Shown piece after piece: positions 47,645-60,494 of a stretch of 64,000 bases of DNA. Origin of the DNA: Nakamurella panacisegetis (GTDB lineage: Bacteria; Actinomycetota; Actinomycetes; Mycobacteriales; Nakamurellaceae). Made by a program: the position numbers and the translations under genes. The DNA lies in the NCBI RefSeq assembly GCF_900104535.1, contig NZ_LT629710.1:1302001-1366000 (forward strand), given 5' to 3'. The notes beneath the pieces were generated by a model, which was not told the origin of the DNA, made no database searches, and worked only from the letters and a program-made list of their open reading frames with translations. Positions within the stretch are counted from its first letter, which is position 1. Every line of letters starts with the position of its first letter.

Positions 47645-48202
47645 TCATCCCCGGGCCACCAGGCCGGCCACCCGGACCGCCTCGGCCTCGGGATCGGCCG
47701 ATCCAGAGGCGGCGAGGTGGTCGACCACCGGAGGCGGGACGGCCGGTGGGACCACTCCGGGCTGGGCCGTCCGGTCCCGGGCCAGATTGCGGGCCACCCG
47801 ACGGGCCAGCGCGATCTCCGGTGACACGGTCACCCAGACCAGTTGCACCTGCGCGCCCCCGACCTGTGCGGACAGCCGGTCCCAGGCGACGGGATCGGAA
47901 CACTCGCGGGTGAACGGAGCGATCATCACGACGTCCCGCCCGATGCCGGTGTTGTCGGCCGCCAGATCGAGCAGGCACTCGTAGCGCGCGTCGCGGACCG
48001 GTCCGCGAAGCCCGGGATGGTCGAGGTCGTCGCCCGCGCCGACCAACCGGGCCAGCTGGGCCATCAGCGGGTTGGTCGCCACATCCTGGTCCAGCACCAC
48101 GGCTCCGGTGTGCTGGGCCAGCGCCCGTCCCAGCGTGCTCTTGCCGCTCCCGGGTGGCCCGGCGACGACGTAGACGATCGGGCGCGGGCGGGATGGGTCC
48201 AT
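47645..48202 (-). CDS. P-loop kinase-like ATPase (AAA_33 type)
   Basis: A protein of 185 residues from ATG 48202. The Walker A motif is VVAGPPGSGKSTLGRAL, followed by VVLDQDVATNP. A later LVWVTVSPEIALARRVARN contains the lid arginines, and the overall pattern is that of small-molecule kinase-like AAA_33 proteins. The substrate is not known. A CACAAT hexamer six bases before the ATG suggests another leaderless promoter. It is divergent from the first LacI gene and ends eight bases from the pheA promoter element. Confidence 0.8.
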   Translation of the reverse strand: MDPSRPRPIVYVVAGPPGSGKSTLGRALAQHTGAVVLDQDVATNPLMAQLARLVGAGDDLDHPGLRGPVRDARYECLLDLAADNTGIGRDVVMIAPFTRECSDPVAWDRLSAQVGGAQVQLVWVTVSPEIALARRVARNLARDRTAQPGVVPPAVPPPVVDHLAASGSADPEAEAVRVAGLVARG

Positions 48203-48289: not shown

Positions 48290-48353
48290 TTGACAAGGCA
48301 TGCGAACTCGCGGCAAAGTACCCGAGACAACGTTGTCTCACCGCTCGGTGAGA
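48290..48353 (+). promoter_or_regulatory. Promoter and LacI operator of the first sugar operon
   Basis: TTGACA (48290-48295) and CAAAGT (48314-48319) are 18 bases apart. The perfect palindrome GAGACAACGTTGTCTC (48324-48339) lies at the expected transcription start, a classic repressor position with the central CG common in LacI-family sites. A second dyad, TCTCACCG-CT-CGGTGAGA (48336-48353), overlaps it. The core GACAACG(C/T)TGTC recurs twice upstream of the second sugar operon. Confidence 0.75.
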
Positions 48354-48392
48354 AGCGTGATGGTCGCTCGGCCGGACGAGAGGGCGTGAGGA

Positions 48393-49454
48393 ATGCAGTC
48401 GTCGCCTCGCGCCCGTCGCGCCACCATGACCGACGTCGCCCGGGCCGCGCAGGTCAGCCTCAAAACGGTCAGCCGCTACGTGAACGGCGAGACCAACATC
48501 GACCCGGTGATCGGCGCCCGGATTGCCGAAGCCATTGCCGCCCTTCGTTTCCGACGCAACATGGCGGCGGCCAGTATCCGCCCCGGACAGCGTTCCCAGC
48601 TCGTCGGGTTGATCATCGAGGACGTCGCCAACCCGTTCTACTCGGCACTGACCCGGAGCGTCGAGTTGGCGCTCCGCGCGGCCGGTCTGCTGCTGCTCGC
48701 CGCCAGTTCCGAGGAGGACCCGGTCCGTTTCACGCGGTTGATCGAACAACTCATCGAGCGGCGGGTCGACGGCCTCATCGTGGTCGCGCCCAGTCATCCG
48801 GAACCGGGTTGGCCCGAACTCGCTCGCGAGATCCCGGCCCTGGTCATCCTGGACCGCTTCGACGACACGATCGATGCCGACAGCATCGTCGGCGACGACG
48901 TCGGCGGCGGAACAGCGGCGACCGAACTGCTGGTCGGCTCGGGCGCCCGGCGGATCGCGTTCGTCGGCGAGGCCCTCGGCCTGTCCACCATCAACGGCCG
49001 CTACCAGGGTTACCTCGCCGCCCTGGCCGCGGCCGGGCTGACGGCCGACCCGGCCCTGGTCATCGACGGGGTTCGCACCAGCGACGACGTGTGCACAGCG
49101 GTCACCGAGCTCCTCCGGCCCGGTGTCCAGGTCGATGCCTTCTTTGCCGCGAACAACCTGGCCAGCCTGGGCGTTCTCAAGGCGTTCCGGCGCTTGGGCA
49201 TCTCCCGTCCCATCGTCGGCTACGACGATTTCGAATCGGCGGCCCTGGTGCAGCCGGCGGTGACCGTGGTCAGCCACAGCGTGGCCGACATGGGGCGCCG
49301 GTCGGCCGAACTGCTGCTGGCCAGGATCGACGGTGACCGAACGCCGGCGCACCACCTCGTCCTCCCCGCGACCACCACCCTGCGCGCGTCCCATCGCGCG
49401 CCGATCCCCCATCGTCCTGATCCACCACTCACAGAGATGACGACAACCCCGTGA
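48393..49454 (+). CDS. LacI family regulator (first)
   Basis: A protein of 353 residues. The helix-turn-helix is TMTDVARAAQVSLKTVSRYVNGE with the hinge region FRRNMAAASIRPG. The effector domain follows the periplasmic-binding fold (LVGLIIEDVANPFYSALTRSVELALR, RVDGLIVVAPSH, FFAANNLASLGVLKAF, GYDDFESAALVQPAVTVV). It is the first gene of an operon with an aldolase and a dehydrogenase, overlapping the aldolase start by four bases. An autoregulated repressor acting on the palindrome upstream is likely. Confidence 0.92.
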   Translation: MQSSPRARRATMTDVARAAQVSLKTVSRYVNGETNIDPVIGARIAEAIAALRFRRNMAAASIRPGQRSQLVGLIIEDVANPFYSALTRSVELALRAAGLLLLAASSEEDPVRFTRLIEQLIERRVDGLIVVAPSHPEPGWPELAREIPALVILDRFDDTIDADSIVGDDVGGGTAATELLVGSGARRIAFVGEALGLSTINGRYQGYLAALAAAGLTADPALVIDGVRTSDDVCTAVTELLRPGVQVDAFFAANNLASLGVLKAFRRLGISRPIVGYDDFESAALVQPAVTVVSHSVADMGRRSAELLLARIDGDRTPAHHLVLPATTTLRASHRAPIPHRPDPPLTEMTTTP

Positions 49455-50290
49455 TCCAGTACAAGCTCCGTCGCCTGTTCAACCCGACCTCCGGACGGCT
49501 GCTCGACGTCGCCGTCGACCACGGATTCTTCGGCGAACCCGCGTTCCTCACCGGTATCGCCGACCTACCGGCCGCGATCGCCACCCTGGTCGAGGCCGGT
49601 CCCGACGCCATCCAGCTGACCATCGGCCAGGCCCGGCTGCTGCAGAACCGACCGGGGAGGTTCAAACCGAGCCTGGTCCTCCGCGCCGACGTGGCCAACG
49701 TCTACGGCGCGGACCTGCCGGAGCGGGTGTTCAGCCTGCCGATCGAGAACGCCGCCGTCAGCGCGGCTCAGCTCGACGCCACCTGTCTGGTGGTCAACAT
49801 CTTCGATCTGCCCGGCCAGCCCGAACTCAAGGAGCAGTGCATCCGGAATGTCCTCGCGCTCCGGGCCGAGTGCACCAAGCTGTACATCCCGCTGATGGTC
49901 GAGCCGTTGGTCATGCGCGCCAACAATTCCGGCGGCGCCTACCTGGTCGATGGTGACATCGACCGGATCACGTCGTTGGTCCGCCAGGCGGTCGAACTCG
50001 GCGCCGATCTGATCAAGGCCGACCCGTCGGACGACATCTCGGAGTACCACCGGGTGGTCGAGGTCGCATCCGGCATCCCGGTGCTGGTCCGCGGCGGCGG
50101 CCGGGTCGCCGACGACGTGCTGCTCCAGCGCACGAAGGATGTCCTGGAACAGGGCGCGACCGGGATCGTCTACGGCCGCAACATCATTCAGCACCGCGAT
50201 CCGGCCGGGATCACCCACGCGCTGATGTCCGTGCTGCACGAGAACGCGTCCGTCGAGCACGCACTGACCCTGATCGGCGGCCAGGCGTGA
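49451..50290 (+). CDS. Class I aldolase (DhnA/FbaB/LsrF type)
   Basis: A protein of 279 residues from GTG 49451. The barrel has RLLDVAVDHGFFGEP near the start, YIPLMVEPLVM, the Schiff-base Lys in GADLIKADPSDD, PVLVRGGGRVAD, and the phosphate-binding GATGIVYGRNIIQ. Relatives are class I fructose-1,6-bisphosphate aldolases and LsrF-type thiolases. It likely cleaves or forms a phosphorylated sugar bond. It is one of two different class I aldolases in this sugar locus. It overlaps LacI and the dehydrogenase by four bases on each side. Confidence 0.85.
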   Translation: MIQYKLRRLFNPTSGRLLDVAVDHGFFGEPAFLTGIADLPAAIATLVEAGPDAIQLTIGQARLLQNRPGRFKPSLVLRADVANVYGADLPERVFSLPIENAAVSAAQLDATCLVVNIFDLPGQPELKEQCIRNVLALRAECTKLYIPLMVEPLVMRANNSGGAYLVDGDIDRITSLVRQAVELGADLIKADPSDDISEYHRVVEVASGIPVLVRGGGRVADDVLLQRTKDVLEQGATGIVYGRNIIQHRDPAGITHALMSVLHENASVEHALTLIGGQA

Positions 50291-51477
50291 GCGCCCGGCA
50301 GCCGGTCCGCGTCGGCGTCATCGGTGCCGGGCTGATGGGCAAGGAACTGGCCGGTGCCCTCGGCCGGTGGTCCGCCCTGTCCGACTCGGCCGTCGATCCC
50401 CAGCTGACCGCCGTGTGCGACGTCAACGCCCCGGCCCTCGACTGGTTCCGCCGGGTCTCGTCGGTGCGGACGCTGACCGACGACTACCGCAATCTGCTCG
50501 ACGGATCGGTCGACGTGCTCTACGTCGCCGTTCCTCACCACCTGCACGAGAGCCTCTACCTGGACATCGCCGCCGCTGGCGTCGATTTCCTCGGGGAGAA
50601 GCCGTTCGGCATCGATCCGGGCGCCTCCGCGGCCATCGGCGACGGGATCGCCGCCTCGTCCGCCTTCGTCCGCTGCTCCAGCGAGATGCCTTTCTATCCC
50701 GGTGCGCAGCAGGCGATCTCGTTCCTACAGCAGGGCCGGGCGGGACGGATCATCGAGGCGAACTTCGCGTTCCTGCACTCGAGTGATCTCAACGTGGACA
50801 AGCCGATCAACTGGAAACGGCAGACCCAGTTCTGCGGCCAGATCGGCGTCATGGGCGACCTGGGCATGCACGTCACGCACGTCCCGCTCCGGCTCGGTTG
50901 GCAGCCATCGTCGGTATTCGCTCAGCTACAGGATCTGGTGCCGACCCGGCCCGACGGCAAGGGCGGCGTCGCCGACTGCGACACCATCGAGAACGCCACC
51001 CTCTGCACCCGCGTCACCGATCCGTTGGGTGATTTCCCGCTGACCCTGGAGACCAAGCGCATCGCTCCCGGCGAGATGAACACCTGGCGCATGCGCGTCG
51101 TCGGGATGGACGGCGGCGTGGAGTTCAGCACGCGCTACCCCGCATCCCTCAAGGTGATGACGGTCCGCGACGGCCAGCAGGTGTGGGAGGAACGAATGGC
51201 CGGAAGCCAGTCGGCCCAGCCGACGATCACCGGCGGCATCTTCGAATTCGGCTTCACCGACGCGTTGCTGCAGATGTGGGCGGCGTACTTCGCCGAACGG
51301 GCCGGTGAGCTCGGTGACGCCTTCGGCTGCGCCACCCCAGCTGAGGCGTTGGCCAGTCACGACCTGTTCGACGCCGCCCTTCGGTCGAGTGCCACCGGCT
51401 CGGCGGTCCCGTTCACCTCCGGCACCAGACGCCGGCACGTGGCATCCGACGTCGCCGGAGTGATCGGGAGGGCCTGA
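50287..51477 (+). CDS. Gfo/Idh/MocA family oxidoreductase
   Basis: A protein of 396 residues. The N-terminal NAD-binding fold is VRVGVIGAGLMGKELAGALG, with the catalytic EKPFG segment in DFLGEKPFGIDPG and VAVPHHLHESL before it. The C-terminal beta-sheet domain carries GVMGDLGMHVTHVPLRLG with the conserved Asp and His. Members oxidise or reduce sugars, inositols or their derivatives. In this operon it probably converts the incoming sugar or a derivative before or after phosphorylation. The last 30 residues are unlike the family core. Confidence 0.88.
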   Translation: MSARQPVRVGVIGAGLMGKELAGALGRWSALSDSAVDPQLTAVCDVNAPALDWFRRVSSVRTLTDDYRNLLDGSVDVLYVAVPHHLHESLYLDIAAAGVDFLGEKPFGIDPGASAAIGDGIAASSAFVRCSSEMPFYPGAQQAISFLQQGRAGRIIEANFAFLHSSDLNVDKPINWKRQTQFCGQIGVMGDLGMHVTHVPLRLGWQPSSVFAQLQDLVPTRPDGKGGVADCDTIENATLCTRVTDPLGDFPLTLETKRIAPGEMNTWRMRVVGMDGGVEFSTRYPASLKVMTVRDGQQVWEERMAGSQSAQPTITGGIFEFGFTDALLQMWAAYFAERAGELGDAFGCATPAEALASHDLFDAALRSSATGSAVPFTSGTRRRHVASDVAGVIGRA

Positions 51478-51542
51478 GGTGGTGCGCCGCCGGCCGGCCA
51501 GGCGTAGGTCCGGCACGGTTCAGGCGCCCCACTCGTCCCAGT

Positions 51543-51670
51543 CACACCCGTTCGCCCCGTCCACACCCGTTCGCTCCGTCCGCACCCGTTCGCTCCGTCC
51601 GCACCCGTTGACGGCCCGGGAACGGGTGTCCCGGTGGCGAACGGGTGTCGCGGTGGCGAACGGGTGTGGC
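51543..51670. repeat. 19-bp repeat array that reverses orientation
   Basis: Four forward units with core CACCCGTT start at 51543, 51562, 51581 and 51600 (period 19). They are followed by three inverted cores GAACGGGTGT at 51620, 51639 and 51658, again with period 19. The left half can fold on the right half as one long imperfect hairpin. It begins 66 bases after the dehydrogenase stop. The remaining gap to 51954 holds no supported gene. Confidence 0.88.
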
Positions 51671-51954
51671 AGCCCGCTGCGAGCGGTCCGGATCCCGATA
51701 TATCTGCGTCGATCCCAGGCGCCGGCTGCCTGCGATGAAGGGCGATGAATGGCGGCGACCGAGCGGAGCCAGCCTGCAGCACCGCCCGGATCATTCAACG
51801 CGCCAAGCACTTTCGGTGTCACAGCGAACACGCGCTCCTACCGAGCGTGATCTTGATCGATTCATCGGACACCGTCAGTGCACCCGGCGTCACGGTCGAA
51901 CGACACCCCCCTCGACAGTTACCGAACCGTGACGTCCCGGCAAAGTCCCGGCCA

Positions 51955-52058
51955 TTGACAACGCTGTCATGCCGGGGCACAGTGGCGGATACGTCCCGAT
52001 CCACCCGGTGACCACGGTCACAGATTGACTTGATGCGTCGAAAATGACAACGCTGTCA
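51955..52058 (+). promoter_or_regulatory. Promoter and paired LacI operators of the second sugar operon
   Basis: TGACAACGCTGTCA occurs at 51956-51969 and again, identical, at 52045-52058, 89 bases apart. The first copy overlaps a TTGACA -35 (51955-51960) with a weak CACAGT -10 (51978-51983) 17 bases on. The second lies downstream of the expected start. Two spaced copies suggest repression by looping. The core matches the palindrome ahead of the first LacI gene. Confidence 0.75.
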
Positions 52059-52134
52059 ATCGTCACCTCGGGCGAACGCACCACCGCTGTCGACACCGAC
52101 GCCGATACCGGAAATCGCAGGAGGAGAGGCACTG

Positions 52135-53100
52135 ATGCTGATCGCCGCACCCAACCTGTGCCTCGACATCACCATCCGCCTCGCTGCCCTCGTCCCTGGC
52201 ACGGTCGCGCGGGCCGGAAGCACGGACACCTCCGCCGGCAGCAAGGGCGTGAATGTGGCGCGGGCCGCGAAGTCGATCGGCGCCCGGCCCGTCATCGCGG
52301 GCTTCCTCCCGCATGGCAACGGTGATCGCCTCCTCCAGCTCCTGGACGAAGAACAGCTTGAGCTGCAGCACGTTCCGGTTGACGGAGAGCTGCGCCTGGC
52401 CACCATCCTGCTCGAGGACAGCGGCCGGGTGACCATGGTCAACGGCCGCGGCGCATTCGTCAGCACGCAGCGTTGGCAGCAGTACGCCGAACTCGTCGCC
52501 CAGGCCGCGCCCGGCCGGCACGTCCTGGTCTGCAGCGGTTCACTGCCCCCCGGCCTGCCGACCGACGCCTACCGCCGCCTCGTGCAGATCGGCCACCTGG
52601 CCGGACTCCCGGTGATCGTCGACGCGGCCCCGGACGTCCTCCGCGATGCACTTCCGGCCGAGCCGGACCTGGTGTCCCCCAACCTGTCCGAGGCCGAAGG
52701 ACTGCTCCTGGGCCGGGTCGGCGAGGAGGTCGACGAACAGGGCGACGACATCCCCGGACGGGCGGTCGAGGCCGCCGTCGCCCTGCACGCCCGCGGTGCG
52801 GTCCGCGCGGTGGTCACGGCCGGAGCCCACGGCGCCGCGTTGGCCACTTCCGCCGGTTCCTGGTGGTTGCCCGCCCTGCCGGTGGACGTGGTCAACCCGA
52901 TCGGCGCCGGCGACTGTTTCGCGGCCGGCGCGGCCAACGCCCTGATGGCCGGCGCCGACGACCTCGACATCGTCCGACACGGCATGTCGGTCGCCGCCGC
53001 GGCCTGCGAGACCCCGACCGCGGGACGTCTCAACCCGGCTCGGGCGGCGGCACTGTTCGAAATGTCGACCGCAGAGCCGATCCCGGCGGCGGCCCGATGA
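52135..53100 (+). CDS. PfkB family hexose-phosphate kinase (LacC/FruK type)
   Basis: A protein of 321 residues, preceded by a strong AGGAGG. It starts NLCLDITIRL and has AGSKGVNVARAAKSIGA, the LacC/FruK glycine-rich signature, then VCSGSLPPGLP, and the C-terminal NPIGAGDCFAAGAANALM with the catalytic Asp. This subgroup phosphorylates C1 of fructose-1-phosphate- or tagatose-6-phosphate-type ketose phosphates. With the LacD-like aldolase downstream it suggests a ketose bisphosphate intermediate. It is the first gene of the eight-gene operon. Confidence 0.87.
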   Translation: MLIAAPNLCLDITIRLAALVPGTVARAGSTDTSAGSKGVNVARAAKSIGARPVIAGFLPHGNGDRLLQLLDEEQLELQHVPVDGELRLATILLEDSGRVTMVNGRGAFVSTQRWQQYAELVAQAAPGRHVLVCSGSLPPGLPTDAYRRLVQIGHLAGLPVIVDAAPDVLRDALPAEPDLVSPNLSEAEGLLLGRVGEEVDEQGDDIPGRAVEAAVALHARGAVRAVVTAGAHGAALATSAGSWWLPALPVDVVNPIGAGDCFAAGAANALMAGADDLDIVRHGMSVAAAACETPTAGRLNPARAAALFEMSTAEPIPAAAR

Positions 53101-54104
53101 CCGGCCGCGCCACCGTCTACGACGTGGCCCGCGTGGCCGGCGTCTCCATCAAGACCGTGTCCCGGGTCGTCAACGGGTCCGAGCAGGTTTCCGAGCAGAC
53201 CCGGCAACGGGTGCTGACCGCCGTGGCCGAACTGGCCTACGTCCGCAACTCGGTTGCCCACTCCCTCCGGACCGGCAGCGGCGACACCATCGGCGTCGTC
53301 ATCGATTCGATCGCCGACACGTTCTTCGCCAAGCTCGTCTCGGTCGTCGAGGAACGCATGCTGGCCGAGGGCATCGGGGTGCTGATCGCGTCCACCGGGC
53401 GGTCGGCCGGCCGCGAACACGACCAGGTCGTCCGGTTGGCCGGCCAGAATGTGCGCGCCCTGCTGATCGCGCCGATCGGTGACGACCACAGTTACTTCAC
53501 CGACGCCACCGCCGGTCTGCCCGTCGTCCTGGTCGACCGTGGTTGGGAGATCCCCGGCTACGACACGGTTCTCGTCCACGACCGGTTGGGTGCCCAGACG
53601 GCGACCGCCCACCTGATCGCCGGTGGACATCGGCGCATCGCCTTCATCGGCGACGACGGTGACCTGCCGACCATCGCCGAGCGGCGGCTGGGCTACCTGG
53701 ACGCGCTGACGGCGGGCGGCCTGCCGATCGACGACGCTCTGCTGCGCACCGGCTGCGGCGAGCCCGAGCCGGCCGCCATCGCCACCGCCGAGCTGCTGGC
53801 CATGCCCGACGCGCCCACCGCGGTGTTCTCCTCGAACCCGCGGGCCAGCCTGGGTGTCGTCCGGGCCCTGCACCAGGGCGGCCGCACCGACATCGCCCTG
53901 GTCAGCTTCGGCGACTTCGCCCTGGCCGACTCGCTGGAGCCGGCGGTCACCATCGTCGACCAGGATCCGACGCTGATCGCCGAAGCCGCCGTCGACCTTC
54001 TGCTCGCCCGGATGCGCGGCGAGCAGTCCGAGGCCAACAACATCGTGCTACCCGTCAACGTGGTACCGCGAGGATCCGGAGAACTGCTGCCGTGCAACCG
54101 ATAG
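53097..54104 (+). CDS. LacI family regulator (second)
   Basis: A protein of 335 residues from ATG 53097, overlapping the kinase stop by four bases; the open frame from 52473 is a shadow. The helix-turn-helix is ATVYDVARVAGVSIKTVSRVVNG, near-identical in its recognition helix (VSIKTVSRVVN against VSLKTVSRYVN) to the other LacI of the locus. The sensor domain follows (IGVVIDSIADTFFAKLVSVVEERM, NVRALLIAPIGDD). That similarity explains how both could read the same operator core. Being inside the operon, it would regulate itself. Confidence 0.92.
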   Translation: MTGRATVYDVARVAGVSIKTVSRVVNGSEQVSEQTRQRVLTAVAELAYVRNSVAHSLRTGSGDTIGVVIDSIADTFFAKLVSVVEERMLAEGIGVLIASTGRSAGREHDQVVRLAGQNVRALLIAPIGDDHSYFTDATAGLPVVLVDRGWEIPGYDTVLVHDRLGAQTATAHLIAGGHRRIAFIGDDGDLPTIAERRLGYLDALTAGGLPIDDALLRTGCGEPEPAAIATAELLAMPDAPTAVFSSNPRASLGVVRALHQGGRTDIALVSFGDFALADSLEPAVTIVDQDPTLIAEAAVDLLLARMRGEQSEANNIVLPVNVVPRGSGELLPCNR

Positions 54105-55147
54105 TCATGCCCCCCAACATCATCGACCACTTCTACCTCGGCGGTTCGAAGATCGCCGAGCTGCGCGGAGTCGACCTGCCGTCCCCCCGCCGTCCCGAGG
54201 AGTGGTTGGCCGCAACCACCTCCCGCGCCGGTGAGCCGGAGATCGGGCCCAGCCGAACCGCCACCGGCGCGTTGCTCCGTGACCTGATCGCCGCCGACCC
54301 GGTCGCCTGGGTGGGCTCGCCGGACGGACCCCCCGGCGACAACGGCATCCTGGTCAAGTTGCTCGATCCGGACCAGCGGCTGCCGGTGCACGTGCACCCG
54401 GACCGTTCGTTCGCGCTGTCCCACCTGAACTGCCCGTACGGCAAGACCGAAGCCTGGTACGTCCTGGACACCACCGGAGCGGATCCGTCGGTCTGGCTCG
54501 GGTGGGCGCAGGACGTCGACCCGGACGAACTGGCCCGCCGCGTCGACGCACAGGACTCGGACTGGATGCTCTCCCGGATGAACCGCATCTCGGTTCGTCC
54601 CGGCGACGGGATCCTCGTCCCGTCCGGCACCGCCCACGCCACCGGCGAAGGCGTCTTCGTGACCGAGGTGCAGGAACCGACCGACTTCTCCATCATCCTG
54701 GAATGGGTCGTCACCACCTCCACCCGCGACGAGTCACACCTCGGCCTCGGTCTGCCGCTCGCACTGACCGCGACCAATCACCGGGCCTTCACCGCCGCCG
54801 ATCTGGACCGCCTGGTCGTACACACCGACCCGACCTCGACATCTGCCGCACCACAACGATTGCTGCCCACCGACGCGGATCCCTTCTTCCGTCTGGATCG
54901 GTTGGCACCGGGCGGCCGCGGCGCTCCTGGGCTGCCCGCCGGATTCGCGGTCGGCATCGTCCGCAGCGGCTCCGGCACGCTCTCCGGCGCCAACGGCGAA
55001 CCGATGGACGTGACCCGCGGCGAGGTGGTCGCCATTCCCGCGGCCTTCGGCGACTGGCGGATCGACGGTGACGTCGAACTCATCGCCTGCCGCCCCGGTG
55101 CGGGCTGGCCCGGCACCCTGGTCACCACCGGCGCCGGTGCACCGTGA
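54092..55147 (+). CDS. Class I mannose-6-phosphate isomerase-like protein
   Basis: A protein of 351 residues from GTG 54092, with ATG 54107 as an alternative. The zinc ligands of type I isomerases are present: His100 and His102 in LPVHVHPDRSF, Glu in GKTEAWYVLD, and His in VPSGTAHATGEG. A C-terminal cupin-like half (GSGTLSGANGEPMDVTRGEVVAIPAAFG) completes the fold. It would interconvert an aldose and ketose phosphate. The sequence is diverged from housekeeping ManA, and its place in a dedicated sugar operon suggests a different substrate. Confidence 0.85.
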   Translation: MQPIVMPPNIIDHFYLGGSKIAELRGVDLPSPRRPEEWLAATTSRAGEPEIGPSRTATGALLRDLIAADPVAWVGSPDGPPGDNGILVKLLDPDQRLPVHVHPDRSFALSHLNCPYGKTEAWYVLDTTGADPSVWLGWAQDVDPDELARRVDAQDSDWMLSRMNRISVRPGDGILVPSGTAHATGEGVFVTEVQEPTDFSIILEWVVTTSTRDESHLGLGLPLALTATNHRAFTAADLDRLVVHTDPTSTSAAPQRLLPTDADPFFRLDRLAPGGRGAPGLPAGFAVGIVRSGSGTLSGANGEPMDVTRGEVVAIPAAFGDWRIDGDVELIACRPGAGWPGTLVTTGAGAP

Positions 55148-56610
55148 CCACGTCCATCCTGCTGGGCGTCGACGTGGGCACCTCCGACTCGAAAGTGCTG
55201 GCCACCACGACCACCGGCGAGGAGATCACCTCCGTCTCCAGTGCGACCCAGTGGCGCAACCACGGCGGACAGTTCACCGACACCGATCCGGAGAAGTTGG
55301 CGAGCGGCGTGCTCGCCCTCCTCGACCGGGCCGTCGCGGCCTCCCGCGATCTCGTCGGCCCGGTGTCGGTCAGCGCCATCGCCATCACCGGGATGGCCGA
55401 AGCCGGTGTCCTGCTGGATGAGTCGGGCGTCGCCGTGCACCCGATCATGGCCTGGTTCGACCCCCGGGGCGGTGACGAGATCCAAGCCCTGCCCGTGCCG
55501 CTGCTGCGAGAATTCTGCGGTCGGACCGGCCTCCCGGCGAACGCGCTGGCCACCATCGCGAAGCTGGCCTGGATGCGCGGCCAGGGAACGGTGCTGCGGG
55601 GCAAGCAGTGGCTGAACGTTCCCGAGTTCCTGGTGCACCGGCTCGGCGGGGTGCGCGCCTCGGAGATGTCATTGGCCGCACGGACCGGCCTGATGGACCA
55701 GGACACCGGGGAACTGTGGCCCGAGGCCCTCGCCGCCATCGAAGCCGATGGCTCACTGATCCCGCCCCGCGTCGTCGCCGGGACGCCCCTCGGGCGGGCC
55801 GGCGGACCGGAGGTGCCGGTCGGAATCCATGGCGCGGTGCTCACGATCGCGGGCCACGACCATCCCGTGGCCGCGGTCGGGTGCGGTGCCACCGGAGCCG
55901 ACGAGATCTTTGATTCCTTCGGCACCGCCGAGGCTCTGGTCCGCAGTGTCGACGGCAACCTGGACGCCGCGGCCCGTGACCGACTGGCCTCGGCCGGGGT
56001 GAATTCGGTGCACCACGTGCTCGCCGGACGGCGGTTGTTGCTCGGCGGCACCAAGGCCGGGCTGCTGCTGCGCCGCACCCTGGACATGCTCGGGGCCGGG
56101 GCCAGCGAGCGCCGGGCCGAACTGGACCGGTCCGCCTGCGAACTGTCCGACACGGCCGGCGAAGCGGCCACCGAAGGTATCCGGATCTGGGGCGCCGCCA
56201 ACAACGACGGCACCCTGCGCATCAACGTCACCACCGACGCGGTCAGCCCGGCCGCCATCTGGCTGGCGACGCTGGATCACGCCGTCGACGAGGCAGCCCG
56301 CTGCCTCGACCTGATGGCAGCCGAGATCGGCCCCGCCAGCGCGGTGGTCGTGGCCGGCGGATGGACCCGGATGCAGTCGGTCCGGCAATCCAAGGAATCC
56401 TCGCTGCCCAATGTTCGTTTCTCCGACCGATCCCAGGCCGGCGCATTCGGGGCCACCATGTTTGCGGCGCACGCCGCATTGGTAGCCGAAAGACTCACCA
56501 CCACAGGCGATTCCAGCGGCAATTCGCTGGCCCTGCCGGACGGGCCCAGCGAAGCCTTCGCGGCCCGTTACACCCACCGCACGCAGACTCTCGAGGAGAT
56601 CACCACATGA
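55144..56610 (+). CDS. FGGY family carbohydrate kinase
   Basis: A protein of 488 residues from GTG 55144, overlapping the isomerase stop by four bases. It has the phosphate-1 motif LLGVDVGTSDSKVLA, AIAITGMAEAGVLLDESG, the substrate-site PIMAWFDPRG, an ATP-site GGTKAGLLLRR-type segment, and the adenosine motif AVVVAGGWTRMQSVRQSK. Related enzymes phosphorylate xylulose, gluconate, tagatose or tetritols. It would be the first kinase acting on the imported sugar. The specificity is not readable from the sequence. Confidence 0.88.
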   Translation: MTTSILLGVDVGTSDSKVLATTTTGEEITSVSSATQWRNHGGQFTDTDPEKLASGVLALLDRAVAASRDLVGPVSVSAIAITGMAEAGVLLDESGVAVHPIMAWFDPRGGDEIQALPVPLLREFCGRTGLPANALATIAKLAWMRGQGTVLRGKQWLNVPEFLVHRLGGVRASEMSLAARTGLMDQDTGELWPEALAAIEADGSLIPPRVVAGTPLGRAGGPEVPVGIHGAVLTIAGHDHPVAAVGCGATGADEIFDSFGTAEALVRSVDGNLDAAARDRLASAGVNSVHHVLAGRRLLLGGTKAGLLLRRTLDMLGAGASERRAELDRSACELSDTAGEAATEGIRIWGAANNDGTLRINVTTDAVSPAAIWLATLDHAVDEAARCLDLMAAEIGPASAVVVAGGWTRMQSVRQSKESSLPNVRFSDRSQAGAFGATMFAAHAALVAERLTTTGDSSGNSLALPDGPSEAFAARYTHRTQTLEEITT

Positions 56611-57524
56611 CGGCCACCACCCGGACCGGGCTCGCATCCATCGCCACCGATCAGGACACCTTCGCGATCGTGGCCATGGATCAGCGGAACACGCTCAAGC
56701 GGATGTACCACGCGGTCGGCATCCCGGACCCGTCAGACGACGAACTGATCCAGATCAAGGCCGACACCGTGGAAGCGCTGCGCGGCAGCGCTTCCGGCTA
56801 TCTCCTGGACCCGACCTTCGGTGTCCCCGGCCTGGCCCGCATTCCGAAGGAGGGTGCCCCGTACGGCGTCCTCGTCGCCGCTGAGCCGTCCGAGCGCGGC
56901 ACCATCAACGGAGAGCCCCGCGGACACCGTGATCCGGCTCTGAACGCGCAGTGGGTCAAGGACCAGGGCGGCGATGCGCTGAAGTTCTACGTCCAGCTCC
57001 GCGCCGACCGCAAGCCGGGTCCGGACGGTGTCGACACCACGGCCGAGGTGCTCGAGGTCATCAAGCAGGTCGTCGCCGACTGCCGCGAGGTGGGCATCCC
57101 CAGCGTCATGGAGAACCTGATCTTCCCGCTGGCCGGCGAGGAGCCGCCGACCCCGGCCCAGCGCGCCGACCGCATCATCGAGGCCGCGATTCTGATGGAC
57201 GAGCTCAAGCCCGACCTGATCAAGGTCGAGTACCCGGGTGACGAGGCGTCCTGCAAGCGGCTGGCCGACTCCCTGACCGTGCCCTGGGCCGTCCTCTCGG
57301 CCGGTGTCGCGTTCGAGGAATTCGCTGCGGCCCTGCGCATCTCGTGCGACGCCGGTGGTGCGAGCGGCTTCATCGCCGGGCGTTCCATCTGGAAGGACGC
57401 GGTCGGCATGGATCAGGTGACTCGGAAGGCCTACCTGGCCGACGAGGGCAGGCGTCGTCTGGACAACCTCGTCCAGGTGATCGACGGGCGTGCGCGCCCC
57501 TACACGGAGGTGACAGCGCGGTGA
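56607..57524 (+). CDS. LacD-like class I aldolase
   Basis: A protein of 305 residues from ATG 56607, eight bases after GAGGAG and overlapping the kinase stop by four. It has FAIVAMDQRNTLKRMY, the barrel strand SGYLLDPTFGVPGL, ALKFYVQLRAD, the Schiff-base Lys in PDLIKVEYPGDEASC, VPWAVLSAGVAFEEF and GFIAGRSIWKDAVGM. These match tagatose-1,6-bisphosphate aldolase LacD and its relative YihT. It should cleave a ketose (bis)phosphate into dihydroxyacetone phosphate and an aldehyde. Confidence 0.87.
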   Translation: MTATTRTGLASIATDQDTFAIVAMDQRNTLKRMYHAVGIPDPSDDELIQIKADTVEALRGSASGYLLDPTFGVPGLARIPKEGAPYGVLVAAEPSERGTINGEPRGHRDPALNAQWVKDQGGDALKFYVQLRADRKPGPDGVDTTAEVLEVIKQVVADCREVGIPSVMENLIFPLAGEEPPTPAQRADRIIEAAILMDELKPDLIKVEYPGDEASCKRLADSLTVPWAVLSAGVAFEEFAAALRISCDAGGASGFIAGRSIWKDAVGMDQVTRKAYLADEGRRRLDNLVQVIDGRARPYTEVTAR

Positions 57525-58288
57525 CCCCCATTCTTGAAGCACGCGGGCTGTCCAGGAGCTTCGGACACGTCCGGGCCCTGGACGAGGCGGACTTCGACGT
57601 CAACGAAGGCGAGGTGGTCGCCCTCATCGGCGACAACGGCGCCGGCAAGTCAACCATGGTGAAGGCGCTCTCGGGCAATCTAGCGCTCGACGAAGGTCAG
57701 GTCTTCTTCGAGGGCGAGCAGATCGAGATGACGACCCCGCAACAGGTGTCGGCTCTGGGTATCGAGGTCGTCTATCAGGACCTAGCCCTGGCCCCACATC
57801 TGGACCCGGCTCAGAACGTGTTCCTCGGCCGGGAACTTCCGGCCAAGGGGATCCTCGGAAGGTTCGGGTTCATGGACAACAAGGAGATGCGACGTCAAGC
57901 CCGGGCGTCCTTCGACGAACTGGGCGCCACGGTGCGGTCGTTGACCGCGCCGGTCGGGTCGATGTCGGGCGGGCAGCGGCAGGGCATCGCCATCGCCCGG
58001 GCCATCGCCTGGGCCTCGAAGGTCGTCTTCCTGGACGAGCCGACCGCCGCCCTCGGCGTGGTGCAGACCAAGAACGTGTTGGAGACGATCAAGCGGGTAC
58101 GCGACCGAGGCATCGCCGTCGTTCTGATCTCGCATTCGATGCCGCACGTGTTGGAGGTGTCCGACCGGGTACAGGTGATGCGCCTCGGCCGGCGCGTGGC
58201 GACCTTGGCGACCAAGGGCAGTTCGGTCGAAGAACTGGTCGGCGCTATGACCGGTGCCCTGGACTTCTCGAACGGATCGGCGGCATGA
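57521..58288 (+). CDS. Sugar ABC transporter ATPase (single-domain, FrcA-like)
   Basis: A protein of 255 residues from GTG 57521 with GGAGG ten bases upstream. It has Walker A GDNGAGKST, the signature MSGGQRQGIAIARAI, Walker B VVFLDEPTAAL and the switch His in VVLISHSM. Unlike RbsA it has only one ATPase domain, as in FrcA of fructose transporters. It couples to the adjacent permease, overlapping it by four bases. Confidence 0.92.
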   Translation: MTPILEARGLSRSFGHVRALDEADFDVNEGEVVALIGDNGAGKSTMVKALSGNLALDEGQVFFEGEQIEMTTPQQVSALGIEVVYQDLALAPHLDPAQNVFLGRELPAKGILGRFGFMDNKEMRRQARASFDELGATVRSLTAPVGSMSGGQRQGIAIARAIAWASKVVFLDEPTAALGVVQTKNVLETIKRVRDRGIAVVLISHSMPHVLEVSDRVQVMRLGRRVATLATKGSSVEELVGAMTGALDFSNGSAA

Positions 58289-59352
58289 GCATCATTTCCC
58301 CCAACAAGCCCGAAGTGGCGCTCGATGACGAGCGACACGAATCGCTGCTCAAGCGGCTGGCCAATCTCCAGTCGGTCTGGATCCTGGGCGTACTGCTCGT
58401 CATCGTCGCCTACTTCGCGATCGCCGGCGGCGGGAACTTCTTTTCCGGCAACAACTTCTCATTGATCAGTCAGAACATCTCGGTCCTGGCCATCATCGGT
58501 GTCGGGATGACCTTCATCATCATCACCTCCGGCATCGACCTCTCGGTCGGCTCCGTCCTGGTGTTCGCCTCGGTGATCTCGGCCAAGGTGATCGAGGCGA
58601 TGGGCGGCACCAGCGGCGGGGCCGTTCTCCTGGGCATTCTGGCCGGGCTGGTGGCCGGCGGCGCCTGGGGGTGGTTGAACGGATTCCTCGTGGCCAAGGC
58701 CAAGATCCCGCCATTCATCGTGACCCTGGGAACCCTGTCCGCCGCATTGGGTCTGGCCCAGGTCATCACCTCTGGCCTGAACATCACCCTGGACGAATCG
58801 GCCCTGACCGATTTCGGCATCTACACCAAAGTGCTCGGCATCCCGGCGTTGCCGTTTGTTGCCCTGATCGTTGTCATTCTCGGCGGAATTCTCTTGCACC
58901 GGACGAAGTTCGGTCGCTATACTTACGCGATCGGCTCGAACGCCGAGGCAGCCAAGCGGGTTGGCGTCAAGGTCGATCGACATCTGATCCAGGTCTATTG
59001 CCTGGCCGGAGTTCTCGCCGGCTTGGGAGCAGTTCTCTACCTGGCGCAGTTCGGCACCACGACGATTGCCGGCCAATCCCTCACCAACCTGAATGTCATT
59101 GCGGCGGTCGTCATCGGCGGCACGTCGGTGTTCGGTGGCGAGGGCTCCATGTTCGGCACTATCGTCGGTTTGTTCATTCCGGCCGTTCTGCAATCCGGCT
59201 TCGTCATCATCGGTGTCCAGCCATTCTGGCAGGGCGTCGCGGTCGGCATGGTGTTGATTGCCGCCGTGTACATCGACCAGACCCGACGGGCCGCGGCTCT
59301 TCGCGGCGCAAGATCCTCCCGTTCCGGTAAAAAGCCGGCCGGCAAAAAGTGA
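58285..59352 (+). CDS. Sugar ABC transporter permease (RbsC/FrcC-like)
   Basis: A protein of 355 residues with eight to ten membrane helices. Family motifs include GVGMTFIIITSGIDLSVGSVLVFASV, PPFIVTLGTLSAALGLAQVI, YTYAIGSNAEAAKRVGVKV and AVVIGGTSVFGGEGSMFGTIVG. It forms the channel for a monosaccharide in the CUT2 group. The C-terminus is basic. It precedes the substrate-binding gene by 11 bases. Confidence 0.93.
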   Translation: MSIISPNKPEVALDDERHESLLKRLANLQSVWILGVLLVIVAYFAIAGGGNFFSGNNFSLISQNISVLAIIGVGMTFIIITSGIDLSVGSVLVFASVISAKVIEAMGGTSGGAVLLGILAGLVAGGAWGWLNGFLVAKAKIPPFIVTLGTLSAALGLAQVITSGLNITLDESALTDFGIYTKVLGIPALPFVALIVVILGGILLHRTKFGRYTYAIGSNAEAAKRVGVKVDRHLIQVYCLAGVLAGLGAVLYLAQFGTTTIAGQSLTNLNVIAAVVIGGTSVFGGEGSMFGTIVGLFIPAVLQSGFVIIGVQPFWQGVAVGMVLIAAVYIDQTRRAAALRGARSSRSGKKPAGKK

Positions 59353-59363
59353 AAGGAAACGCA

Positions 59364-60494
59364 ATGAAGCGGTCCCTCGTCCTCGGCGTCGCCGCCAGCG
59401 CCGCCATGGCGCTGGTACTGGCGGGATGTTCGTCGTCCAAGCCATCCGACGCCAGCAGCACTTCATCGGCCGCCGCCGCGACCTCGGCCGCGGCCTCCGC
59501 CCCGGCTGTCGTGTCGTCCTCCGCCGCCCCAGCCTCATCGGCGGCCGGTTCGTCCGCCGCAGGTTCCTCGGCCGCCGGTTCCTCCTCTGCGGGCTCCTCG
59601 GCCGCGGCGCCGACCAAGGCCAGCAAGAACTACAAGATCTCCTTCATCCAGGGCGTGGCCGGTGACAACTTCTACATCACCATGCAGTGCGGCATCCAGA
59701 CCGAGGCGGCCAAGCTCGGCGTCACGGTGAACACCCAGGGCGCCACCAAGTTCGACCCGACCCTGCAGACCCCGATCCTCGACTCGGTCGTCTCGTCGAA
59801 GCCGGACGCCATCCTGATCGCCCCGACCGACGTCAAGGCCATGCAGGCGCCGTTGGCCAAGGCAGCAGCCGCCGGCATCAAGATCGTTCTCGTCGACACC
59901 ACCGTCAACGACCCGTCGTTCGCTGTCTCGCAGGTCTCCTCCGACAACGTCGGCGGCGGAAAGGCGGCCTTCACCGCGATCAAGGGTCTGCAGCCCAAGG
60001 GCGGCAAGGTTCTCGTCATCTCGGTTGATCCCGGCATCTCCACCACCGATGCGCGGGTCGCTGGCTTCGAGACGGCCACGAAGGCCGACTCGTCGTTCAA
60101 CTACCTCGGCGTCCAGTACTCGCACAACGACCCGGCCACGGCCGCGTCGCTGGTGACGGCCGCCCTGCAGAAGGACCCCGACATCGTCGGCATCTTCGCC
60201 ACCAACCTGTTCGCCGCCGAGGGCGCGGCCACCGGCATCAAGCAGGCCGGCAAGTCGGGCAAGGTCTCGATCGTCGGCTTCGACGCCGGCCCGGACCAGA
60301 TCAAGGCGCTCAAGGCCGGAACGGTTCAGGCCCTGGTGGCCCAGCAACCGGACACCATCGGCGTCGACGGATTGGACCAGGCCGTCGCGGGTCTCGACGG
60401 CGGCAAGGTCACCCCGAAGATCCAGACCGGCTTCTCCATCATCACCTCGGCCAACGTCGACAGCACCACGGCCGCGTACAAGGCAGCCTGCTGA
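59364..60494 (+). CDS. Sugar ABC transporter substrate-binding lipoprotein (CUT2)
   Basis: A protein of 376 residues from ATG 59364, four bases after AAAGGAAA; an upstream GTG at 59349 is less likely. The signal KRSLVLGVAASAAMALVLAGC ends in a lipobox. A Ser/Ala-rich linker of about 60 residues with SSAAG repeats leads to the type I periplasmic-binding fold (YKISFIQGVAGDNFYITMQCGI, ILDSVVSSKPDAILIAPTD, VSIVGFDAGPDQIKALKAGTVQALVAQQP). It binds the sugar outside the membrane. It is the last gene of the operon, before a strong terminator. Confidence 0.93.
   Translation: MKRSLVLGVAASAAMALVLAGCSSSKPSDASSTSSAAAATSAAASAPAVVSSSAAPASSAAGSSAAGSSAAGSSSAGSSAAAPTKASKNYKISFIQGVAGDNFYITMQCGIQTEAAKLGVTVNTQGATKFDPTLQTPILDSVVSSKPDAILIAPTDVKAMQAPLAKAAAAGIKIVLVDTTVNDPSFAVSQVSSDNVGGGKAAFTAIKGLQPKGGKVLVISVDPGISTTDARVAGFETATKADSSFNYLGVQYSHNDPATAASLVTAALQKDPDIVGIFATNLFAAEGAATGIKQAGKSGKVSIVGFDAGPDQIKALKAGTVQALVAQQPDTIGVDGLDQAVAGLDGGKVTPKIQTGFSIITSANVDSTTAAYKAAC

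Follow-up and report, generated by a model that had tools for sequence, protein, structure and literature searches.

Eleven genes of Nakamurella panacisegetis, all on the + strand at 48393-60494 of the window (the 64,000-nucleotide stretch analysed here, positions 1,302,001 to 1,366,000 of contig NZ_LT629710.1), form two operons separated by a 657-base gap (51478-52134) between gfo and pfkB. The first has the order lacI1, dhnA, gfo; the second consists of pfkB, lacI2, a manA-like gene, fggy, a lacD-like gene, and the ATPase, permease and binding protein genes of an importer, and within both operons the ends of neighbouring open reading frames overlap tightly. An earlier reading made from the letters alone (the sequence-only reading) had described these genes in this order and place, but its starting point, 48290, lies in upstream DNA, as lacI1 begins at 48393. 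We argue below that the two operons are one module, which may be a LacI-controlled regulon for D-mannose uptake and breakdown (probability about 0.5).

Genes and sites of the locus

47645-48202, - strand: P-loop (AAA_33) small-molecule kinase, 185 amino acids (PF13671, 57.5 bits), divergent from lacI1
48325-48338: LacI operator 1, perfect palindrome AGACAACGTTGTCT, between the P-loop kinase gene and lacI1
48393-49454, + strand: LacI-family regulator 1 (lacI1), recognition helix SLKTVSR (PF00356, Peripla_BP_3)
49451-50290, + strand: DhnA/archaeal-FBP-type class I aldolase of the DeoC/LacD superfamily (PF01791, 100 bits)
50287-51477, + strand: Gfo/Idh/MocA dehydrogenase (PF01408, 47 bits)
51543-51669: long, imperfect hairpin between the two operons, made of 19-bp repeats (fold z-score -7.3)
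51956-51969: LacI operator 2, TGACAACGCTGTCA
52045-52058: LacI operator 3, TGACAACGCTGTCA, 89 bp from operator 2
52135-53100, + strand: PfkB kinase, FruK/1-phosphofructokinase-like (PF00294; TIGR03168, 213.5 bits; TIGR03828, 206.8 bits)
53097-54104, + strand: LacI-family regulator 2 (lacI2), recognition helix SIKTVSR (PF00356, 63 bits)
54092-55147, + strand: ManA-like cupin isomerase (TIGR00218, 61.3 bits; fold match to Bacillus subtilis ManA)
55144-56610, + strand: diverged FGGY-family kinase (PF00370, 69 bits; best equivalog XylB, 85 bits)
56607-57524, + strand: LacD-like class I aldolase (PF01791; PRK12858, 150 bits, cut-off 184)
57521-58288, + strand: sugar ABC importer ATPase, single domain, 255 amino acids (PF00005)
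58285-59352, + strand: sugar ABC importer permease, CUT2 type (by homology)
59349-60494, + strand: sugar-binding lipoprotein of the importer (PF13407, 171 bits; best PDB match 5dkv)

Pfam and NCBIfam models confirm the family of ten of the eleven genes, and the permease was assigned through its homology to annotated permeases; none of the enzymes scanned reaches an NCBIfam equivalog cut-off. The families named in the sequence-only reading are thus upheld, except that the PfkB protein, which it had placed in a LacC/FruK type, is nearer to 1-phosphofructokinase (its best family, TIGR03168, falls just under the cut-off of 216.4 bits, and TIGR03828 has a cut-off of 292) than to LacC (TIGR01231, 103.2 bits where 409.6 are required). 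That reading also missed a twelfth gene, the P-loop kinase gene, which faces away from lacI1 across operator 1 and shares that operator region; it belongs, in our count, to the regulon. Homologues of this kinase with 37-46% identity are present in six related clusters (L027, L043, L045, L053, L067 and L089), and in rhizobial clusters that have a LacD-like aldolase and an importer of the same type, a similar P-loop kinase domain forms a fusion protein with a ROK sugar kinase. Such ROK-AAA_33 fusions, beside a LacD-like aldolase and an importer of the 5dkv type (see below), are found on Aureimonas, Agrobacterium and Rhizobium plasmids (L169, L170 and L171), and could possibly be double sugar kinases in one protein. 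In the hairpin between the operons, tandem repeats of 19 bp (CACACCCGTTCGCTCCGTC) stand opposite inverted copies (GAACGGGTGTCCCGGTGGC), and the genome has partial copies of the hairpin near 0.36 and 2.83 Mb; it is possibly a terminator or a repeat element.

A shared operator and a conserved module

The operator core GACAACGNTGTC occurs once before lacI1 and twice before pfkB, which bears out the earlier proposal that one LacI operator core joins the operons. It is present at seven places in the 5.0-Mb genome, three of them at this locus, and a reversed-pattern control finds one. In 93 related loci (1.54 Mb) there are 47 exact occurrences of the core, against 0.6 in shuffled sequence, and almost all of them lie no more than about 250 bp upstream of lacI, manA, dhnA or abcA. 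This core is also present ahead of dhnA in Microbacteriaceae, L034 and L128, and the region upstream of lacI-manA in Microbacteriaceae repeatedly has two sites spaced about 65-80 bp apart. The LacI proteins that adjoin operator sites in the related loci carry the helix S-[I/L/V/M]-K-TVSR, and the predicted recognition helices of LacI1 and LacI2 are near-identical; in mycobacterial relatives and in G075 the helix is SAKTVSR and the cluster has no operator site. A single operator linking both operons as one regulon is supported by these observations.

The two operons are one module. In two metagenome-assembled genomes (MAGs) from another class of the same phylum (L026 and L027), importer, lacD, pfkB, lacI, manA and fggy form a block that is followed by convergent gfo-dhnA, and Microbacterium and Agromyces have dhnA-gfo and lacI-manA-fggy-importer arranged divergently, each side with a LacI of its own as in the window. 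The dhnA and gfo genes are also beside manA and fggy in Nanopelagicales-type MAGs, an Egibacteraceae MAG, L034 and a Spirochaetaceae MAG (L104), and clusters that pair them usually have the operator in common. Among 397 genomes of the phylum, 14 have manA-like orthologues and 7 have dhnA orthologues, with both in 6 (p ~4e-9, or 1e-7 without the window's own genome; these values ignore the relatedness of the genomes). Since the ManA-like gene also occurs in many loci of unrelated context, it is not by itself diagnostic of the module. The locus is real and widely conserved and, to judge from its operators, coherently regulated. As the sequence-only reading held, the combination is not a textbook tagatose, fructose or inositol pathway, and the search that it proposed for these families together in other actinobacteria finds them so in several lineages, with operator, gene set and two-LacI arrangement recurring.

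The operons might instead belong to two separate pathways that share only the LacI operator, with DhnA and Gfo acting on a co-released compound such as a modified or beta-linked mannoside. The absence of dhnA and gfo near manA in the mycobacterial, Plantibacter and Pseudonocardiales clusters, and their presence without manA in L128, would fit such a division. We consider it quite improbable, as dhnA-gfo adjoins manA-fggy in many lineages, and in Microbacteriaceae its cluster has no pfkB or lacD homologue, which looks as though dhnA-gfo supplied the rest of the route there.

Orthologues of DhnA are 57-63% identical and are always beside gfo wherever the flank is covered, and those of Gfo (50-69% identical) are beside dhnA. 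An EKP motif and a D-x3-H site can be read in Gfo, which scores 65 bits against the levoglucosan dehydrogenase equivalog (650 required) and 31 against IolG (355 required); LsrF is a profile match of DhnA. The two proteins are conserved as strongly as any member of the module, and DhnA probably serves as the ketose-phosphate aldolase where the LacD-like enzyme is absent.

Several other genes were seen near this pair or its relatives. Genes of the mutarotase-like family DUF4432 recur beside dhnA-gfo, which suggests a function in sugar anomer handling; Pfam confirms them at L129:10458-11459 and L130:897-1925 and gives a weak match in L027, and those at L048:4639-5631 and L059:7757-8803 were recognised by eye only, as was the Microbacterium assignment. 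On a Subdoligranulum variabile plasmid (L173) a Gfo relative (44%) lies beside a class II aldolase, an FGGY kinase, an AraA-like isomerase, an aminotransferase-III gene and a second Gfo, a comparable set of functions assembled from mostly unrelated families. A fusion resembling rhamnulose-1-phosphate aldolase and a short-chain dehydrogenase/reductase adjoins the conserved cluster in Microbacterium/Agromyces loci L046, L055 and L059 (with an FGGY kinase in L046 and L059), possibly reflecting co-inheritance of deoxyhexose and mannose use.

Substrate and order of the reactions

The importer has a Peripla_BP_4 binding protein, an RbsC-type permease and a sugar ATPase, as CUT2 importers do. Its permease is 35% identical to an annotated Thioclava ABC permease (L038) and 43-72% identical to those of related clusters, and the best NCBIfam match of its ATPase is to the N-terminal half of the YtfR/AraG/RbsA type, the protein being a single domain of 255 amino acids rather than the double domain of about 500 usual in CUT2 importers.

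Where the sequence-only reading left the substrate unconstrained, the conserved neighbours in relatives favour D-mannose or another sugar configured like it at C2. One or two GH92 genes lie divergent from the lacI-manA block of Allokutzneria, Crossiella, Sciscionella, Saccharothrix and Amycolatopsis, with the importer present in five of the six loci so linked, and in Saccharopolyspora (L062) the block is divergent from a GH47 gene; GH92 and GH47 are alpha-mannosidase families. (Three of the GH92 proteins and the GH47 protein were confirmed with Pfam, the remaining GH92 proteins with tblastn.) GH92 genes occur in 25 of 297 actinobacterial genomes, and about 0.04 linked loci would be expected by chance where six are found (p ~8e-12). 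Operator matches lie at the 5' ends of the mannosidase genes in L065 (GH92) and L062 (GH47). None of the GH92- and GH47-linked clusters has its own kinase or aldolase close to the operon, in keeping with a product that housekeeping enzymes can handle, for example fructose. In Embleya (L172) the same importer family is divergent from LacI, an AGE protein resembling D-mannose isomerase (449 bits, cut-off 600) and a fructokinase-like PfkB; G275/L128 has a mannosidase-like GH2, a PfkB kinase and dhnA-gfo under the same operator; and a D-lyxose/D-mannose isomerase gene and a PfkB kinase gene come after dhnA-gfo in Rhizobium and Thioclava. Because of these mannosidase and mannose-isomerase neighbours the substrate is probably D-mannose. 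A tannase/feruloyl-esterase gene near the Thioclava cluster had brought hamamelose to mind, which found no other support.

The binding protein itself directs attention to another sugar, for its best PDB match, also first by fold, is 5dkv (E 4.6e-60), and the loops expected to form its pocket match 5dkv and are nearly invariant across the family, a mannosidase-linked member included. We take 5dkv to be a D-tagatose complex. Tagatose was our initial reading, from 5dkv and LacD, and was demoted as the sole answer after the mannosidase and mannose-isomerase neighbours appeared. In that scheme D-tagatose is imported, or D-talose is imported and isomerised by the ManA-like enzyme, FGGY and PfkB together make tagatose-1,6-bisphosphate, and the LacD-like aldolase cleaves it. 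Rhizobial homologues of the importer adjoin a tagatose-bisphosphate-type aldolase and the ROK/P-loop kinase fusion, a bisphosphate aldolase of its own is easier to understand in a tagatose pathway than in a fructose one, and isomerases of the D-lyxose/mannose type are known to accept D-talose. However, the relatives linked to alpha-mannosidases and D-mannose isomerase have the same operator and the conserved pocket, they work without the dedicated kinase or aldolase that tagatose would need, and D-talose is rare in nature, so that we rate D-tagatose or D-talose as unlikely.

An AlphaFold model of the ManA-like protein (mean pLDDT 88) has as its first fold match 1qwr, the B. subtilis ManA (E 5.5e-23, TM 0.74/0.82), and its TIGR00218 score lies below the equivalog cut-off of 116.2 bits. 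The metal-site His/Glu/His residues are kept in the ManA-like family, in which the Q-x-H motif of ManA is H-x-H, and the arginine of the canonical Y-R-V-Y motif, present in three canonical ManA proteins, is Ile, Leu or a gap in all eleven members compared. By analogy with structures of phosphomannose isomerase (PMI) this arginine is taken to contact the substrate phosphate. Since the family lacks it, and since free-sugar isomerases of unrelated folds occupy analogous cluster positions in Embleya and rhizobia, isomerisation probably comes before phosphorylation, and the enzyme probably acts on the free (unphosphorylated) aldose. The sequence-only reading had these two steps in what is probably the reverse order. 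That order would make the operon a second copy of the ordinary mannose route: mannose-6-phosphate would come from FGGY or the P-loop kinase, fructose-6-phosphate from the ManA-like enzyme, and fructose-1,6-bisphosphate, for the LacD-like aldolase to cleave, from PfkB. The ManA fold and metal site are retained, and there are five-gene operons without a kinase, as if a housekeeping kinase supplied mannose-6-phosphate; but besides the lost arginine and the free-sugar isomerases of two other folds, the PfkB protein resembles 1-phosphofructokinase, and FGGY kinases act on ketoses, polyols or gluconate and are not known to act on aldoses. Phosphorylation first is in our view unlikely.

The N-terminal domain of the FGGY kinase is above its threshold (PF00370, 28.8 bits), a Pfam scan gives no match to the C-terminal domain FGGY_C, and the scores fall far below those of named equivalogs (XylB, 380 bits required; L-fuculokinase, 58 of 471; LsrK, 31.7 of 528). 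The usual substrates of FGGY kinases are ketoses or polyols. The LacD-like aldolase scores 52.6 bits against the LacD equivalog TIGR01232 (432 required) and is about 30% identical to the YihT and LacD structures. Its place beside fggy/pfkB is taken by a class II ketose-bisphosphate aldolase in mycobacteria, Plantibacter and G075, and the clusters of relatives carry LacD-like, class II or DhnA aldolases in differing combinations, so the two unrelated class I aldolases of the sequence-only reading, both present, look partly alternative. The simplest reading of these families would be ketose to ketose-1-phosphate to ketose-1,6-bisphosphate to two trioses, for which fructose and tagatose are indistinguishable by sequence.

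In the D-mannose regulon that we infer, the CUT2-type importer would bring in D-mannose, the ManA-like cupin enzyme would isomerise it, still free, to D-fructose, the FGGY kinase would phosphorylate the ketose, probably at C1, the FruK-like PfkB would add a second phosphate, and the LacD-like aldolase would split the ketose-1,6-bisphosphate into two triose phosphates. LacI1 and LacI2 would repress both operons through the one operator core until released by the sugar or a derivative, and DhnA and Gfo would be a second conserved arm of the regulon.

Several points weigh against this model besides the 5dkv match. Gfo has no role in a route from mannose to fructose. With fructose as the intermediate, housekeeping enzymes would seem to make two ketose kinases and a special aldolase superfluous, and the cluster aldolases score nearly alike against tagatose- and fructose-bisphosphate models. 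The mannosidase-linked relatives are distant (about 42-48% identical in the ManA-like and binding proteins) and lack fggy, pfkB and lacD, so the branch of the window may have changed substrate. There is no GH92 gene in this genome and no mannosidase in the locus, and the genome's own GH38 genes sit elsewhere (~0.79 Mb). They are part of a separate mannoside-type locus at 0.785-0.799 Mb (L177 and L178), with two GH38 genes, a CUT1-type importer, a LacI and a 634-amino-acid protein with a ManA-like domain; given this second locus, the regulon of the window may be there for free mannose, or a related sugar, from the environment.

Comparison with known systems

Literature searches, in open-licence papers only, found no characterised equivalent. 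We class the locus as a variant of the mannose or ketose-bisphosphate catabolism already known, not as a category of its own. More tentatively, it could be an undescribed actinobacterial route, in which a ManA-fold enzyme isomerises free mannose, FGGY acts on a ketohexose such as D-fructose, and Gfo and DhnA are a new second arm acting on the same sugar. If the D-mannose model is right, a testable function would be given to ManA-like isomerases without the phosphate arginine, the diverged FGGY and FruK-like kinases, the LacD-like aldolase and the P-loop kinase in soil, plant-associated and freshwater actinobacteria; one operator would be defined for a mannose regulon; and one biochemical question, the role of the conserved Gfo-DhnA pair, would be isolated. 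Inositol, levoglucosan and autoinducer-2 (AI-2) pathways failed the equivalog tests, and sulfosugar breakdown, considered because the best PDB match of the LacD-like protein is YihT, was dropped as the locus lacks the isomerase and downstream enzymes.

The free-mannose route (AGE or D-lyxose/D-mannose isomerase plus fructokinase), whose gene set Embleya L172 carries with the same importer family, is like the predicted pathway in sugar import, free-aldose isomerisation and ketose phosphorylation, but the locus has a diverged ManA, an FGGY, a FruK-like PfkB and a P-loop kinase, and added bisphosphate aldolases, DhnA and Gfo. Class I mannose-6-phosphate isomerase (ManA) shares the fold and the metal-site His/Glu/His with the locus enzyme, which differs in its sub-equivalog score, in H-x-H for Q-x-H and in the lost Y-R-V-Y arginine. 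The tagatose-6-phosphate pathway (LacABCD) likewise has a PfkB kinase followed by a LacD-superfamily aldolase, but the locus has neither LacAB nor a phosphotransferase system, and its proteins fall below the LacC and LacD equivalogs. With the sulfoglycolytic Embden-Meyerhof-Parnas pathway (sulfo-EMP, YihSTV) it shares a PfkB and a LacD-like protein whose best PDB matches are sulfofructosephosphate aldolases (E ~1e-24), but it has no AGE-type isomerase or sulfolactaldehyde enzyme and has FGGY, DhnA and Gfo in addition. Finally, the AI-2 (Lsr) system resembles it in having an FGGY kinase, a DhnA-type aldolase and a CUT2 importer, unlike the locus in having LsrG and LsrR and an FGGY kinase of the LsrK kind.

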